From an uncultured Anaerolineae bacterium (GTDB taxonomy: Bacteria; Chloroflexota; Anaerolineae; J036; Brachytrichaceae): a stretch of DNA of 35,905 nt. The notes below the pieces were generated by a model. It saw nothing but the letters and a program-made list of their open reading frames with translations. It had not been told where the DNA came from and did no database searches. The DNA is taken from NCBI GenBank assembly GCA_938034415.1, contig CALHLE010000060.1, positions 1 to 35,905 of the forward strand, given 5' to 3'. Both the position numbers and the translations under genes were made by a program. This document shows, piece after piece, positions 1-8,889 of the stretch. The stretch's first letter is position 1; each line of letters begins with the position of its first letter.

Positions 1-1
1 G

Positions 2-1270
2 CTGCGCTACCGCACGCAGCAGGAGCTGCTGGATGTGGCGCGCGGCTATCGGTCGCGCGGCTTGCCGCTCTCGGTCATCGTGATTGACTTCTTCCACTGG
101 ACGAAATACGGCGACTGGCGCTTTGACCCTGAGAAGTGGCCAGACCCCGCCGGCATGGTGCGCGAGCTGGAGCAGATGGGGGTGAAGGTGATGGTGAGCG
201 TGTGGCCGGCGCTCAACCCCGACAGCGAGAACTTCCAGCGCGCCCTGCGCCAGGGCTGGCTGTTGCGCGCGCTGCGCGGCCAGCCGGCGCACATGAACTT
301 TAGGGATCAATACACCGACGCGCGCGTGTATCTGGCCTACTACGACGCCACGCATCCCGAGGCGCGGCGGTTCATCTGGGAGCAGGTGAAGCAAGGCTAC
401 TACGACCACGGCATCAAGGTTTACTGGCTGGACGCCTGCGAGCCGGAGATGTATCCGGTGCAGTATGACAACCTGCGCTACTACGCCGGCGATGGCCGCG
501 CGGTGGCCAACATTTACCCCTTGCGCCATGCTCAGGGCTTCTACGAGGGGATGCGGGCAGAGGGCGAATCGGAGATCTTGTTCCTCGCGCGCTCGGCGTG
601 GGCCGGCAGCCAGCGCTACGGCGCCGCGGTGTGGAGCGGCGACATTCAATCCACTTGGGAGGCCCTGCGGGCGCAGGTGCCCGCCGGCCTCAACATTGGC
701 CTGAGCGGGATCCCGTGGTGGACGACCGACATCGGCGGCTTCTACGGCGGCGAGGTGACATCCGACTACTTTCGGGAGCTGATCGTGCGCTGGTTTCAGT
801 ATGGGGCGTTTTGCCCGCTCTTCCGCCTGCACGGCTACCGCAAGCCGTATGGGCCGATCACCGGCAGCGGCGGGCCGAACGAGGTTTGGGAGTTTGGCGA
901 GCGCGCCTACGGGATCATCCGCGAAGTGATGTTCCTGCGCGAGCGGCTGCGCCCCTACGTGATGCGCCTGATGCGCGAGGCCCATGAGCACGGCGACCCA
1001 CCGATGCGCCCGCTGTTCTACGACTTCCCGACGGACGCCCATGCTTGGGCCGTGGAGGATGCTTTCATGTTCGGCCCGGAGCTGCTGGTTGCGCCGGTGT
1101 TGCATCCCGGCGCCGCCCAGCGCGAGGTATATCTGCCGGACGGCGCGCGCTGGACCGACGCTTGGAGCGGCCAAACGTTCGCCGGCGGCCAGGTCGTCCG
1201 CGTTGATGCACCGTTGGAGCGCATCCCGCTCTTCCTGCGCGACGATGCCCAACTGCCGATCCGCGCATAA
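2..1270 (+). CDS. GH31 family alpha-xylosidase/alpha-glucosidase, C-terminal part (5' end outside window)
   Basis: Hydrolyses terminal alpha-linked xylose or glucose from oligosaccharides. The reading frame is open from base 2, so the true start lies upstream and only about 422 residues are seen; the family usually has 650-800. The catalytic domain shows the GH31 nucleophile motif WLDACEPE (Asp at 431-433) and the acid/base region WSGD (Asp at 641-643), followed by the family-typical QYGAFCPLFRLHG. The end (about nt 1060-1270) is the usual beta-sandwich after the barrel. WLDACEPE is closer to XylS-type alpha-xylosidases (WLDATEPE) than to YicI or classical maltases, which suggests xyloside specificity; this is an inference. 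No signal peptide can be judged. A dehydratase and dehydrogenases follow on the same strand, consistent with use of the released sugar. Confidence 0.93.
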   Translation: MRYRTQQELLDVARGYRSRGLPLSVIVIDFFHWTKYGDWRFDPEKWPDPAGMVRELEQMGVKVMVSVWPALNPDSENFQRALRQGWLLRALRGQPAHMNFRDQYTDARVYLAYYDATHPEARRFIWEQVKQGYYDHGIKVYWLDACEPEMYPVQYDNLRYYAGDGRAVANIYPLRHAQGFYEGMRAEGESEILFLARSAWAGSQRYGAAVWSGDIQSTWEALRAQVPAGLNIGLSGIPWWTTDIGGFYGGEVTSDYFRELIVRWFQYGAFCPLFRLHGYRKPYGPITGSGGPNEVWEFGERAYGIIREVMFLRERLRPYVMRLMREAHEHGDPPMRPLFYDFPTDAHAWAVEDAFMFGPELLVAPVLHPGAAQREVYLPDGARWTDAWSGQTFAGGQVVRVDAPLERIPLFLRDDAQLPIRA

Positions 1271-2548: not shown

Positions 2549-3313
2549 ATGAGCAACCTGGACTTATCTAGCAAGACCATTCTGATCACCGGCGGCGCCG
2601 GCGCGATCGGTCAGGTGATCGCGCGCAAGCTGCTGGAGCATGGCGCTGCAGTGGCCGTTAACGATGTGCTGCCGCAAGAGGACGCGGAGGCCGTCCTGCC
2701 GAGGTCTGAGCGCTTGCGCTACTTTCAGGCCGATGCTGCCCGCGCCGAGGCAGTAGCAGCGATGTTCGACGCCGTTGAGTCGGCGCTGGGCTTGCCCAAC
2801 GTGGTGTGCTGCCATGCCGGCATGGTCGGCGCACACCCGGTGACCGACTACCCGCTGGCCGAATACGACAAGCTGATGGAGGTCAACGTGCGCGCGGCGT
2901 TCGTCGTGGCGCAGGAGGCCGCGCGACGGTGGTCGGCGCGCGGCGCAGCCGGTCACTTGATCTTCACCAGCTCGTGGGTGCAAGATGTGCCGTGGCCGGA
3001 GATCACCCCCTACACCATGAGCAAGAGCGCGATGAAGGCGATGATGCGCGGCTTCGCGCGCGAGTTGGCTTCGAAGGGCATCCGCGCCAACGCCATTGCG
3101 CCGGGCATCGTCGGTGTGGGCATGGCCAAGCGCCAGTGGGACACCGACCCCAGCTACCGGGCGCGCGCCTCCAGAGCGATTCCGCTGGGCTACATGCAGC
3201 CGCCGGAAAGCGTGGCCGATGCGTTTGTCTTCCTGTGCTCTGATATGGCCGCCTACATGACCGGCGCTACATTGCTGGTGGACGGCGGATGCAGCCTATA
3301 TCCGATGGATTAG
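2549..3313 (+). CDS. Short-chain dehydrogenase/reductase (SDR), probable sugar or sugar-acid dehydrogenase
   Basis: NAD(P)-dependent oxidoreductase of 254 residues, normal for a classical SDR. The cofactor-binding motif TGGAGAIG is at residues 14-21. The catalytic Ser142 (TSSW), Tyr155 and Lys159 (YTMSK) are present. The usual NNAG is replaced by CCHAG, a tolerated variant. The start at 2549 is chosen because the ribosome binding site GGGAGGAG lies just upstream; a longer start at 2522 would add nine residues with no homology value. The gene follows the aldonate dehydratase by 30 nt and is probably co-transcribed. It could oxidise the parent aldose or a 2-keto-3-deoxy acid; the sequence alone does not decide. 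Confidence 0.88.
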   Translation: MSNLDLSSKTILITGGAGAIGQVIARKLLEHGAAVAVNDVLPQEDAEAVLPRSERLRYFQADAARAEAVAAMFDAVESALGLPNVVCCHAGMVGAHPVTDYPLAEYDKLMEVNVRAAFVVAQEAARRWSARGAAGHLIFTSSWVQDVPWPEITPYTMSKSAMKAMMRGFARELASKGIRANAIAPGIVGVGMAKRQWDTDPSYRARASRAIPLGYMQPPESVADAFVFLCSDMAAYMTGATLLVDGGCSLYPMD

Positions 3314-3419
3314 GTATGAGCCGGCGCGCCGTGCGCTGTTGCAGGCAGCGTGTGCCGACCATCATGATGGTCATCCCCGCTGGCGCAAATGCGAGTAATG
3401 CGCTACAAATCGCGCTGGG

Positions 3420-4238
3420 ATGCTCAACGCCTTTCAACCGGTCGAGCACGAAACGACGCTGCGGCGATTCCAGGGCCATGTTGCCATCGTCACCGGCGCG
3501 GCCAGCGGCATCGGCCGCGCGTGTGCGCTGCGCTTTGCCCAAGAAGGCGCAAACGTCGCTTGTTTGGACGTGAACGGCGCCGGCAACGATGCGACCGCTG
3601 AAGCCTGCCGTCGCTATGGCGTCGGCGCGGTCAGCCTGCGCTGCGATGTGTCGAGCGAGCATGACGTACCGCGCGCCATCGCTCAAGTGATGAGCCGCTG
3701 GGGGCGAATAGACGCGCTGGTTGCCGCGGCTGGCATCTATGCCGGCGGCTTGCTAAGCGAGGTAACGCTTCAGCAGTGGCGGCGCGTGCTGGAGGTCAAC
3801 CTGACCGGCGTCTTCCTGTGCAACCAAGCGGTCGCGCCAATCATGATGCAGCAACGCAGCGGCAGCATTATTAACATCTCATCCATGTCCGGCAAAACTA
3901 GCTGGGCAGGCACCCACGAATACTCAGCATCCAAGAGTGGCGTGATCGGGTTAACGCGCGCGGTGGCAATGGAGTTGGCACGGTATGGCGTCACGGTCAA
4001 CGCAGTGTGTCCTGGCAACACCAAGACCGAGTTAGTGCTCAGCGCCGCACGGCAAAACGCTCCGCGCGAAGGACTCACGGCCGAGCAGTGGCTGGCGCGT
4101 CGAGCCGCCGATTGCCCGATGCAGCGACTGGCCGAACCCTGGGAGATCGCCGGTCTATGCGCCTACCTGGCCAGCGAAGATGCGCGCTACATCACCGGAC
4201 AAGCGATCGAGATTGACGGCGGGATGGTCATGAGCTAG
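3420..4238 (+). CDS. Second SDR-family oxidoreductase
   Basis: A classical SDR of 272 residues with TGAASGIG at 25-32, a CDVS turn, AAAG in place of NNAG, and catalytic Ser155, Tyr168 and Lys172 (YSASK). The end INGG-like segment (IDGGMVMS) is typical of the family. It is not a recent duplicate of the preceding SDR: the two differ throughout outside the motifs. The start at 3420 has no clear ribosome binding site, and the first 18 residues precede the first beta strand, so the true start could be slightly different. A gap of 106 nt separates it from the first SDR. Two SDRs, an aldonate dehydratase and an FAH-family enzyme make up the gene set of oxidative rhamnose/fucose/arabinose-type pathways (inference). 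Confidence 0.86.
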   Translation: MLNAFQPVEHETTLRRFQGHVAIVTGAASGIGRACALRFAQEGANVACLDVNGAGNDATAEACRRYGVGAVSLRCDVSSEHDVPRAIAQVMSRWGRIDALVAAAGIYAGGLLSEVTLQQWRRVLEVNLTGVFLCNQAVAPIMMQQRSGSIINISSMSGKTSWAGTHEYSASKSGVIGLTRAVAMELARYGVTVNAVCPGNTKTELVLSAARQNAPREGLTAEQWLARRAADCPMQRLAEPWEIAGLCAYLASEDARYITGQAIEIDGGMVMS

Positions 4239-4276
4239 TTCAAGCCAACGAAGAAGGGGCAAACCACTCAAATGAC

Positions 4277-4293
4277 CCGCTACCTTTTAGCGG
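4277..4293 (+). promoter_or_regulatory. Small inverted repeat (hairpin) before the DUF4352 gene
   Basis: CCGCTA and TAGCGG are separated by 5 nt and end 3 nt before the ribosome binding site. There is no U-tract, so a simple terminator is unlikely. It may shield the ribosome binding site or be a protein site; this is tentative. Confidence 0.35.
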
Positions 4294-4296
4294 TGG

Positions 4297-4302
4297 AAGG
4301 AG
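4297..4302 (+). promoter_or_regulatory. Shine-Dalgarno AAGGAG
   Basis: Lies 7 nt before ATG 4310 and supports that start. Confidence 0.6.
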
Positions 4303-4309
4303 TGATCAG

Positions 4310-5659
4310 ATGAGCTGGATGACTAACGAACCACTTTATCAGATCTGGGATCGCAGCACTACTTCCGAGAAGATCGGCTTTTTGTTCGGCATAGCTAATG
4401 GGGCCTTGATCGGGTTGCTGAGCGGGATCATCGTTGGGGTTGCGAGTAGCCCGTGGATAGTTGTTGTTGGCGCTCTAGCGGGCGGCGTATTGGGGGCGAT
4501 CGGATTCAGCCTGCTATTTAGCAGGCTGAATCAAAAAGTAATTGTTATATGTATAGGACATGTACTTTGGCCGATAGTTTTGGTCATCGCAATAGTCCTG
4601 ATAGGGGGGATTCTAGGATTCTTGATTGGGGCTTTCCTCGCTGGGGTATTGGCAATAGGAGTTGTGATTGTATTGGGCGTGGTGGGCTGCGCTTTGCACG
4701 CGCGGGTCGGGGCCGGGTTAGGAGTCAGTCTTGCCGGACGGCTGGGTGCAGTGTTGACCGGCTTGATCCTGACTGCGATCACCGGTTCGGTCATCGGGCT
4801 AGTTTGGGTGAGAGCTGTGCTCAATGTTTATCCTCAGTTGGCGCGGGAGGCTTTGGCCTTTTGGGCGCTGGCCGCAGTCATAGCAGCAACGCTGGGAGCA
4901 GGAGCCGGCGCAATTGCCTTGTGGTATCTATCGCGGCAGCGGGGCGAACGCTTGCTTCCCCACGAGCGACGCAACACGGCTATCAGCGTGCCGATAGGGG
5001 TAGGAACAGCTTGCCTGCTCCTCCTCACGTCGCCCATCTCGCGCGAGTGGTCGAACGTCAGCGCAGTAGCCGCGCGCTGGTATCAAGAGAACGCGGGGGC
5101 TTCTGCGAGACAAATCAACACGGCGACTGCTACAGCAACGGCTGAGCCTGATGCGAAGACAGCCCCGGCGCTCATCTCTGCCGAAGGAGTTACTCCGGGT
5201 GTCTCGCAACCCACATCGGCCCAATCCGCCTCTGAAGTTGCGCCCGTCAATGCTTCTGCCGAGGAGGGGACAGCGCTGAGCGTAGCCGCCCCAACTTACG
5301 CAGTGGCAGAGCTGCCCACTCCTACCGCAGTGGCGGAGCTGCCCACTCCTACGCCGGAACCCACCTTCACACCAGAACCTACCCCCACGCCGCTGCCGGA
5401 CACGCCGGCAGGTTCAATCTTGAAACCAAAGGAGAGTTGGCGCCAAAATGGCATGGAACTAAGCCTGGACTACTACACATTTCTGCCAAAGTGTGCAGGC
5501 TATTTCTTAGAATTCAGATTCGTTGTCAAGAACAACACCGATGCTGAAATAGTCACTACTATTAGCGGAGACGACTTCGTCCTCTCGGATGACACAGGTA
5601 GAACTTATCAGGGCGACGACGTGAGGGCGCAGTTTAGTGAATGCATAAGTAACGTTTAA
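4310..5659 (+). CDS. Multi-pass membrane protein with Pro/Thr linker and interrupted DUF4352-like domain
   Basis: No enzymatic function is recognised. Residues about 20-245 form roughly seven or eight Gly/Val/Ile-rich membrane segments. Residues about 265-365 are an Ala/Thr/Pro-rich linker with a two-copy AVAELPTPT repeat and further PTP runs. From about 370 a beta-rich segment (FRFVVKNNTDAEIV..FVLSDDTGRTY) looks like an extracellular DUF4352-type immunoglobulin-like domain. That domain is cut by TAA at 5657-5659, but the same frame continues with plausible domain sequence to a second stop at 5828-5830, so the intact protein would be 506 residues. Codon use is visibly richer in A/T (ATA, TTG, AGT) than in neighbours, which may indicate acquisition. 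A strong ribosome binding site supports the start. Confidence 0.75.
   Translation: MSWMTNEPLYQIWDRSTTSEKIGFLFGIANGALIGLLSGIIVGVASSPWIVVVGALAGGVLGAIGFSLLFSRLNQKVIVICIGHVLWPIVLVIAIVLIGGILGFLIGAFLAGVLAIGVVIVLGVVGCALHARVGAGLGVSLAGRLGAVLTGLILTAITGSVIGLVWVRAVLNVYPQLAREALAFWALAAVIAATLGAGAGAIALWYLSRQRGERLLPHERRNTAISVPIGVGTACLLLLTSPISREWSNVSAVAARWYQENAGASARQINTATATATAEPDAKTAPALISAEGVTPGVSQPTSAQSASEVAPVNASAEEGTALSVAAPTYAVAELPTPTAVAELPTPTPEPTFTPEPTPTPLPDTPAGSILKPKESWRQNGMELSLDYYTFLPKCAGYFLEFRFVVKNNTDAEIVTTISGDDFVLSDDTGRTYQGDDVRAQFSECISNV
5299..5352 (+). repeat. Two-copy 27-bp tandem repeat inside the Pro/Thr linker
   Basis: Units 5299-5325 and 5326-5352 differ at one base and encode AVAELPTPT twice. 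Such repeats expand and contract by slippage; here it lies in a spacer between membrane part and outer domain. Confidence 0.85.
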
Positions 5660-5830
5660 ATTTACCCAGCATCCCGCACGAAAATCAGCGCGCTGGCGCC
5701 GCGCCAATCTGTCATGATCAGGTTCTTTGTTGTCGGTGAACTGGGGAAGGACGTGAACAAATTCGTAATAACGGTCGCCAAAGCCGGCAGAATTCGTGAT
5801 GCGGTATGGGAGATTGAAGTACCGCGATAA
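5660..5830 (+). pseudogene. In-frame remainder of the DUF4352 domain after the premature TAA
   Basis: Reading on in the same frame from 5660 gives 56 residues starting IYPASRTKISALAPRQSV and ending WEIEVPR before TAA at 5828-5830. The pattern LAPxQS..(I)RFFV..G... followed by alternating hydrophobics is what ends many DUF4352 domains. This stretch has no start of its own near its beginning, so it is the separated end of the preceding gene, not an independent gene. One base change (TAA from CAA, GAA or AAA) explains the break; recoding or readthrough is less likely for TAA. Confidence 0.75.
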
Positions 5831-5881
5831 CTTAGCAAATTCTCGCTACTGAGCTGACACGCCAGGAACAAACACGAGACA

Positions 5882-6709
5882 ATGACGCATAAACTCGCTC
5901 GCCACGCGACGAGCGCCGGGCCGCGCTGGATTCTGGACGGTCAACCGCTCGTCGCGGGCTTCACCCTGGCCGAGCTGCTCCGGCAGCCGGCCAACGCGAT
6001 TGCCGACTGGCTGACACAGCAACGGGACGCCGCCGCCGGGAATATCCAGATACAGACCGCGCTGCCGCCCATCGAGCCGTTGCAGGAAGTCTGGGCCAGC
6101 GGCGTCACCTACCTGCGCAGCCGCGACGCGCGCAAAGCGGAATCATCGGTCGCCGATGTGTATCAAAAAGTCTACGAAGCCGAGCGGCCAGAACTCTTCA
6201 TGAAAGCCGTCGGTTGGCGCGTCGTGACCGGTGGACAACTGGTGCGCATCCGCAAGGACAGCCGGTGGAACGTGCCGGAGCCAGAGCTGACGCTGGCCAT
6301 CAACTCGCACGGGGAGATCGTCGGCTACACGGCCGGCAACGACATGTCGTCGCGCGACATCGAGGGCGAGAACCCGCTCTACCTGCCGCAAGCCAAGATC
6401 TACAACGGCGCGTGCGCGCTGGGGCCGGAGATCGTGCTGGCAGACGCCGAAGCGATGCGGTCGCTGCCGGTGACGTTAGAGATTCGGCGGAACGGCGCGG
6501 TCGTCTTCAACGGCGAGACCAACATCGCGCGCATGAAGCGCCGGCTGGAAGAATTGGTCGGCTACCTTTACCGGGAGCTCACCTTCCCGGACGGCGCGTT
6601 TCTGATGACCGGCACAGGCATCGTGCCGCCGGAGAGCTTCTCGCTCCAACCAGGCGATCGGGTCATAATCAGCGTCGGCGAGGTGACGCTGGAGAACGAC
6701 GTCGCTTAA
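5882..6709 (+). CDS. Fumarylacetoacetate hydrolase (FAH) family protein, possible 2-keto-3-deoxy-aldonate dehydratase or hydrolase
   Basis: A 275-residue member of the FAH fold, which binds a divalent metal and cleaves or dehydrates 2-keto acids. Predicted metal ligands are E133 and E135 (VPEPEL) and D154 (GNDMSSRD). The stretch [20 protein letters not shown] resembles 2-keto-3-deoxy-D-arabinonate dehydratases (KdaD type) more than true fumarylacetoacetases. An N-terminal domain of about 75 residues precedes the catalytic part. With the dehydratase and SDRs upstream it would complete either a dehydratase route to 2-oxoglutarate semialdehyde or a 2,4-diketo-3-deoxy-acid hydrolase route. The start ATG has only a weak ribosome binding site. 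The gene stands 51 nt after the broken DUF4352 gene. Confidence 0.85.
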
Positions 6710-6760: not shown

Positions 6761-8179
6761 TCACCACGCGCTTAGTTCAAGCAGGCGGTCTTCGTAGAAC
6801 CACAAGATGGCGCGGTCGAAGTCTTCCTCGTCGGCCTGGGAGATGAGCAGATCGCAGATGTCAGGCTCAAGCGCGATCAGGTCATGGATGAGCACTTTCT
6901 TCCGCGCGCCGCTCGGCACCGTGTCACACACGCGGAGCATCGTGCGCCAGTCATGGTCGAAGGCGCCGGCCCACACCATGAGCAAGCGTTGATGGTTGAA
7001 CGTATAACGCTCTTCCCGGCCGGTGTTGGGATTGAGGCGGATGAAGACCAGCTCGCCGCCCAACGGCGGCGGCCTGCGAATCAGGTTAAGCTTACGCTTG
7101 CCGCTCACCAAGCGCGCGCAGGCGCTGCGCACCTCATCGCGTGTCTCCGCCAAGACGCGCCCGCGCTCATACAGGCGGTCATACAAGAAACACACGAGAT
7201 CGATCAGGTTGCGCCGCTCATCCAGCGTCCAGCGCTGTATGAAGCTCGTGTCTATGAAGCTGGAAGCCAACTCGCTGATGTGATAACCGCACAGGTCATC
7301 GAGCGATTGGATCTCGTGCAACTGGGTTTCGATGAACATCAGGAAGATCTCGACGCCGAGCCAGGCCATGACGGGATCGAAACCGCACCGGCTGACGTAG
7401 CGCAGGAAGTCCTCCACGTCGCTCTGCATGAGCGGCAGTTGCAAACCGAGGGCGTCATAATAGCTGCGCGCAGCGGCAATCGCGTCGTTGAGCGCATCCG
7501 CCGGCGTCGTCAAGCGCTGCGCCAGAACTGCCCACTCCTCTGCGCCAGTCGGCATCTCGGAAAGGACACTGAGCAACAAAGCGCGGATATCCCTGGGCAC
7601 GACGGCCACCTTGAACATCCGTTTGCCCAGTTTGCCGTCTTTAGTTCGGGAGGTGCGGCCTACAAAGAGCAACGCTCTGCGGCGTAACTCGCCCAGACAA
7701 GATGTGGGAGGCTCTTCGTCCCAGAACCAGCCGTCGCCGTCCATCGAACCGAAGTCGCGCGTCAGTTCAGCCAGGCGCATCCACCCGCCGTTGTCCATCA
7801 CCCGGCGCAGGGCACTCCGGGCACGAGGGGGCAACTCGGCCACACAGCGCCGGAGTTCGTCCTCCGAAGTCAGGCAAGCGACCAGGGCCGTGACCTTGGC
7901 GCGCCGGCTTTGGCATCGCTCACCTTGCAAAACTAACCGATTTGCCTGGCAAGCGGCATCCAACCATTTGCCGGGGAGCTTATTGAGCGCGGCTGTAAGC
8001 GAGAGGTTGACGCAGATGGCTTTATTCTCTTCCTCGATGCGCCAGCGGTCGCCCCAGTAGCGCACCAGTTCATCCGTCAGCTCGCTTGCCAGCGACGAGA
8101 CGTCGAGGCCGAAATCATTGGCGTCGTCGTGATCGTCGAAGTCGCCATCCTCGAATTCGTCATCAGACTTGGTGTGCAT
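6761..8179 (-). CDS. Uncharacterised protein with acidic N-terminus, helicase-associated (XPB/Ssl2-like) resemblance
   Basis: Function not known. The 472 residues begin with a strongly acidic tail (about residues 4-24). Around residues 110-190 the pattern LPPRARSALRRVMDNGGWMR..ELTRDFG, then LGELRRRALLFVGR, recalls the winged-helix/helicase-associated domain of XPB/Ssl2-like proteins. No Walker or helicase motifs are present, so it is not itself a helicase. The C-terminal half is alpha-helical with no membrane segments. The start at 8179 is chosen because GGGAGGAG lies 8 nt upstream; an in-frame ATG at 8224 would overlap the upstream gene. It shares strand with the YesL-like gene 41 nt upstream, so co-transcription is likely. 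Domain assignment is tentative. Confidence 0.7.
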   Translation of the reverse strand: MHTKSDDEFEDGDFDDHDDANDFGLDVSSLASELTDELVRYWGDRWRIEEENKAICVNLSLTAALNKLPGKWLDAACQANRLVLQGERCQSRRAKVTALVACLTSEDELRRCVAELPPRARSALRRVMDNGGWMRLAELTRDFGSMDGDGWFWDEEPPTSCLGELRRRALLFVGRTSRTKDGKLGKRMFKVAVVPRDIRALLLSVLSEMPTGAEEWAVLAQRLTTPADALNDAIAAARSYYDALGLQLPLMQSDVEDFLRYVSRCGFDPVMAWLGVEIFLMFIETQLHEIQSLDDLCGYHISELASSFIDTSFIQRWTLDERRNLIDLVCFLYDRLYERGRVLAETRDEVRSACARLVSGKRKLNLIRRPPPLGGELVFIRLNPNTGREERYTFNHQRLLMVWAGAFDHDWRTMLRVCDTVPSGARKKVLIHDLIALEPDICDLLISQADEEDFDRAILWFYEDRLLELSAW

Positions 8180-8187
8180 CAGACCCG

Positions 8188-8195
8188 CTCCTCCC
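8188..8195 (-). promoter_or_regulatory. Shine-Dalgarno GGGAGGAG (minus strand)
   Basis: Lies 8 nt before ATG 8179 on the minus strand and decides between that start and the in-frame ATG at 8224. Confidence 0.65.
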
Positions 8196-8220
8196 GGTGA
8201 ACACCACAAAACTTGTGGAT

Positions 8221-8889
8221 TCAAACCTCGTGCTTGTTGCCTTGCATCTCAGCGCCAACCGCTGCTTGCATCTCCATGCGCTTGCGATAGAGGTTGACGC
8301 GGTTGACGACGGCCTCGCTGCCAAACATCGCCCAAGTGGACAGCCCCAGCAACACGAATAACGGCGTAATGGCCAGCGCCACGACCATTAACAACCCAGC
8401 AACGGCCAGCAACGTCAACGTGAACAACGGACTCGCTCCCGCCACCAGCGCCGAATTCCGCAGGGCGACCCGCCAGCGCCGATCCTGTTGTTCCATGTAG
8501 AAGGCGCAGACGTAGAAGTTAATCGTCAGCCAGAAGAACGTAGCCGCGAGCCATGCGCCCTGCACCCACTGCGCCCACACTTCGCGGCCGAACGTCGCGC
8601 CATACCACCAAAAGTTGAAGACGAGCAGCGCCGTGACCACGAACGCAACGATCGCGTAGCGCCATGCCTTGCCAAAGTGTTCACGAAACGCGGCGAAATA
8701 GTGATCCCAGGACACCGCGTAGTCATTCGCGATTCGGTTGCACACCGCGTACAAGGCCAGCACCGCCGGCGGCCCGGGGATGATGACGATGAGGCACAGC
8801 AGCGTGAACACGTTCATCAGCACCAGGTTGAACATCTCGCCCCAGATGTCTTTGAACGTCTTCACAGCTACGCGGAAAGCGTCAATCAT
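8221..8889 (-). CDS. YesL-like (DUF624) multi-pass membrane protein
   Basis: A 222-residue integral membrane protein of unknown role. It shows about five to six hydrophobic segments: residues about 20-50 (containing the break PGPP), 78-98, 108-132, and a long pair around 150-190. The N-terminal IDAFRVAVKTFKDIWGEMF, a short amphipathic helix before the first membrane segment, and the overall length match DUF624/YesL proteins, which often sit beside sugar-uptake genes in Firmicutes. Here it is followed by the helicase-associated-like gene instead. A -10-like TACAAT lies 10 nt before the start, so the transcript may have almost no leader. Confidence 0.75.
   Translation of the reverse strand: MIDAFRVAVKTFKDIWGEMFNLVLMNVFTLLCLIVIIPGPPAVLALYAVCNRIANDYAVSWDHYFAAFREHFGKAWRYAIVAFVVTALLVFNFWWYGATFGREVWAQWVQGAWLAATFFWLTINFYVCAFYMEQQDRRWRVALRNSALVAGASPLFTLTLLAVAGLLMVVALAITPLFVLLGLSTWAMFGSEAVVNRVNLYRKRMEMQAAVGAEMQGNKHEV

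Follow-up and report, generated by a model that had tools for sequence, protein, structure and literature searches.

Bacterial nonsense pseudogenes follow a simple pattern: there is one in-frame stop, the ancestral frame runs on to the original end, and the relatives are intact across the position. The gene analysed here follows the same pattern and has nothing distinctive to set it apart, while the age and the reality of its stop rest on the assembly. It lies in a window of 35,905 nucleotides (the whole stretch of DNA that was analysed) from an uncultured Anaerolineae bacterium. A literature search found no published account of premature-stop pseudogenes in Chloroflexi metagenome-assembled genomes.

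The same uncharacterised C-terminal domain occurs in class-level relatives, such as loci L069, L070 and L097, with the same spacing and the same ending, which consists of a conserved W, about 6 residues and a stop. The domain is intact in these relatives and broken in the window gene. The N-termini also differ. In the class-level relatives the domain is attached to a zinc ribbon plus a transmembrane segment or to other N-termini (zinc-ribbon-like in L069-L072 and PASTA in L073); the N-terminus of the window gene is instead hydrophobic and multi-pass.

The original prediction placed the protein in DUF4352 (PF11611). This name is not earned, since a Pfam search at E values up to 1 found no family for the ORF, for either half, or for the read-through domain, and, when 28 genomes from the order were searched with DUF4352, the only match in this genome was on contig C37, below the cut-off and away from this gene. 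NCBIfam likewise gave no match for the ORF or its read-through forms. Membership is thereby rejected, although a distant relation of the first half of the domain to DUF4352 is possible; a profile-profile comparison of that half with DUF4352 members (hhalign) gave a weak similarity, at 62.5% probability over 63 columns.

Layout of the interrupted gene

The plus-strand frame that opens with ATG at 4310 closes at a TAA at 5657-5659. Past this stop, as the original prediction described, the same frame continues for 56 sense codons until a second TAA at 5828-5830. The two stops are separated by no frame shift, so a single substitution suffices to explain the break, again as first proposed. The features of the locus are listed here, with genomes other than our own given as G numbers.

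4310-5659, plus strand: ORF of 449 aa, with a multi-pass hydrophobic N-terminus, a Pro/Thr-rich linker and the first part of a C-terminal beta-rich domain (from the translation)
5081-5398, plus strand: linker rich in Pro/Thr/Ala (approximate limits, placed by eye on the translation)
5399-5656, plus strand: the 86 aa of the C-terminal domain that precede the stop (67.9 bits against a model of 10 intact relatives)
5657-5659, plus strand: premature in-frame TAA within a variable-length loop (stop absent here in 18 of 18 spanning relatives)
5660-5827, plus strand: the 56 codons of the domain that follow the stop, with a conserved AKAGRIRDAVWEIEVPR ending (35.7 bits against the same model; matched in a relic copy in G013)
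5828-5830, plus strand: original gene end, TAA (15 of 18 relatives terminate at this alignment position or at most 2 residues away)
3320-5885 (approximate limits), plus strand: block made up of a short-chain dehydrogenase (SDR) gene at 3420-4238 and the broken gene, missing between the same neighbours in G008 and G003

A putative ribosome-site-like sequence, GGAAGGAG, is located 7 bases upstream of the ATG, and the linker contains a 27-base tandem repeat (5299-5352). The coding part also holds a perfect 14-base inverted repeat with a 2-base loop (4503-4532), which is present in a single copy genome-wide when up to 3 mismatches are allowed. The openness of the tail is itself weak evidence, since at the local base composition a run of 56 open codons is not rare (P about 0.07).

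Relatives of the tail and the position of the stop

The 86 residues before the stop and the 56 residues after it were searched separately against 41 genomes (our own and 40 relatives). Each query returned one clear match besides the window, and both matches fall on the same contig of G013, which belongs to another genus of the same family (E 5.6e-7 for the pre-stop part; E 5.0e-14 with 60% identity for the post-stop part). Across 396 genomes of the class, the read-through domain (with X at the stop) has matches in 11 at E up to 0.01, several of which cover the whole length without a stop. An eight-row profile (A1) has matches in 18 of the 396 genomes at E up to 0.001. These matches number 25 and comprise one from our own genome, 18 relatives that span the stop and were counted, and six partial matches that were left out, none of which spans the stop (the second copy in G260 in two pieces, the G013 tail, two halves in G298 and one match in G115). 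The intact relatives share at most about 38% identity with the window domain, and the only closely matching relative within the taxonomic family, that of G013, is itself a pseudogene. A whole-ORF search for relatives in a collection of genome contigs gave three loci, each matching merely a short repetitive piece of the Pro/Thr linker, and these were set aside.

None of the 18 spanning relatives outside this genome has a stop at the position of TAA 5657-5659. The sole TAG counted, in G014, sits at the penultimate position and was taken as that gene's own end. The frame ends at the alignment position of the second TAA, or within 2 residues of it, in 15 relatives, and the remaining three (two from G298 and one from G052) continue beyond it. 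The score of the tail alone was obtained with the domain model, built from 10 intact relatives that are a subset of the 18. We made 2000 shuffled tails, and none of the 1837 that were scored reached 35.7 bits (best 8.6 bits); the other reading frames of the tail DNA gave values below 0 bits or no score.

The tail, which the original prediction took for a plausible domain ending, is thus homologous to the C-termini of the relatives, and sequence comparison confirms it as the C-terminal part of a domain that other genomes of the class also carry. Two outcomes were named in advance as counting against this reading, namely homologues that end at the same place and an absence of similarity beyond 5659. 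Neither was observed: no spanning relative ends at 5659, and similarity extends to the second TAA. In the proposed comparison of homologues at the stop itself, no single ancestral residue can be read from the relatives because the position falls within the variable loop. Judged on these alignments, the stop at 5657-5659 is premature and is seen in this genome only, since the frames of the relatives stay open across it, the tail shares homology with their ends, and the G013 relic aligns past it.

An open and conserved tail would also be expected if programmed readthrough or a reassigned TAA restored the full protein. We regard this as highly improbable, as there is no conserved stop and none of the 18 relatives has one to read through, and as TAA normally terminates other genes of the window, among them those for the GH31 and FAA hydrolase proteins, a 1139-aa ORF and a 417-aa ORF. 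Just as little credence attaches to a TAA kept as a switch, which would yield mostly a short membrane form and, by rare readthrough, the complete C-terminal domain.

The predicted domain fold and the probable shortened product

A profile search of solved structures returned one match, to a gamma-adaptin chain, at a non-significant E of 0.69. Single-sequence structure prediction of the read-through domain gave a beta-rich model of low confidence (mean pLDDT 57.4, pTM 0.51). A Foldseek search with this model found no match at E up to 0.001; its best weak matches include the adaptin ear (appendage) domains, which are beta-sandwiches, and are a hint only. The stop corresponds to residue 87 of the low-confidence model, in a stretch with pLDDT under 50, and the predicted strands at 94-99, 104-112, 121-128 and 135-140 would be lost on truncation.

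The 449-aa product could alternatively be a functional shortened form in which the membrane part does its work unaided and the domain has become superfluous. The start, the ribosome-site-like sequence, the 449 open codons and the part before the stop do all look intact. The cut nevertheless falls inside the domain and not at its edge, as judged from the alignment and the low-confidence structure model, and not one of the spanning relatives ends there, which leaves a functional short form improbable.

Our preferred explanation, to which we give good odds, is that a nonsense mutation in this lineage removed the last 56 residues of a membrane-anchored protein whose C-terminal domain is beta-sandwich-like. 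Translation would halt after 449 aa, and the C-terminal domain, minus its last strands, would fail to fold. The protein would then be lost, or a mere membrane stub would remain, and the gene would be in early decay. The nonsense change is probably recent, because the tail still resembles the intact family and contains no further stop or shift.

Damaged copies, genomic setting and the reality of the break

The G013 copy lies on a contig of 6505 bases and is a heavily decayed relic that has lost segments, changes frame and contains several stops. It aligns with the window on both sides of the window's stop. Where the window has its premature TAA the relic carries no stop, so that stop is not common to the two. 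Differences between the window and the relic number 23, 18 and 37 of 76 at codon positions 1, 2 and 3 before the stop (one-sided Fisher P 0.001), and 13, 14 and 25 of 55 after it (one-sided Fisher P 0.006). Since third codon positions are the most divergent both before and after the stop, translation of the tail in this frame took place for at least part of the divergence between the two copies. A further damaged copy was observed in G260, where the second of two tandem domain genes (L078; contig C17, 3790-5341) is split by about 1.2 kb with a minus-strand ORF, which by eye we take to be of the IS630 transposase type.

The main rival to a real nonsense mutation is an error of sequencing, assembly or binning, or a strain mixture, such that the organism's gene would be intact and the consensus base wrong. 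The draft genome comprises 83 contigs, one base accounts for the break, and a single miscalled base in the assembly would look identical; the tail also keeps its coding pattern and shows no further damage. Wrong consensus bases are, however, rare in assemblies of ordinary depth, and the domain family is also broken in other genomes (the G013 relic and the split copy in G260), which makes a real loss plausible. We consider an error unlikely on balance. A real nonsense mutation or a sequence error, the case is one of ordinary gene decay or miscalled sequence and not of a new mechanism.

The genes upstream of the broken one encode a GH31 glycosidase, an enzyme of the mandelate-racemase/enolase-like kind and two short-chain dehydrogenases, and downstream is a fumarylacetoacetate-hydrolase-like gene. 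In the same-genus genomes G008 and G003 the first dehydrogenase and hydrolase genes are nearly adjacent and the block of about 2.6 kb is absent. The second dehydrogenase is found elsewhere in G003, G004, G005 and G006, beside a third dehydrogenase-like gene. The GC3 of the broken gene is 0.59, compared with 0.74-0.87 in the other genes examined, and looks foreign. A plasmid search found no relative at E up to 1e-2. Taken together, the absence of the block in same-genus genomes, the low GC3 and the plasmid result suggest an acquired and dispensable gene, and the broken gene appears to be a passenger in a sugar-catabolism-like cluster. An origin of the block as a mobile element was rejected, as a repeat search of 3200-6100 found no clear terminal repeat pair at its ends.

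Two further observations concern the surrounding genes. The GH31 gene (window 1-1270; L025, 914-2178) has 96% DNA identity with that of G013, a genome of another genus, whereas pieces of the G013 relic just after GH31 are only about 67-75% identical to the window and same-genus G003 has 93% identity over GH31 and the next gene. These values suggest a recent transfer of the GH31 gene. Further along the window, two overlapping ORFs run in opposite directions, at 6761-8224 (minus strand) and 6884-7687 (plus strand), and neither has a Pfam match. The minus-strand ORF is the likelier gene because it is better conserved in relatives (87% in G003, against 67% for the plus-strand ORF).

The value of the finding is mainly annotational. 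Annotators should flag the gene as broken or test it for a miscalled base, and domain censuses should still count its C-terminal part. For the family, an uncharacterised domain with several damaged copies hints that its members are dispensable.
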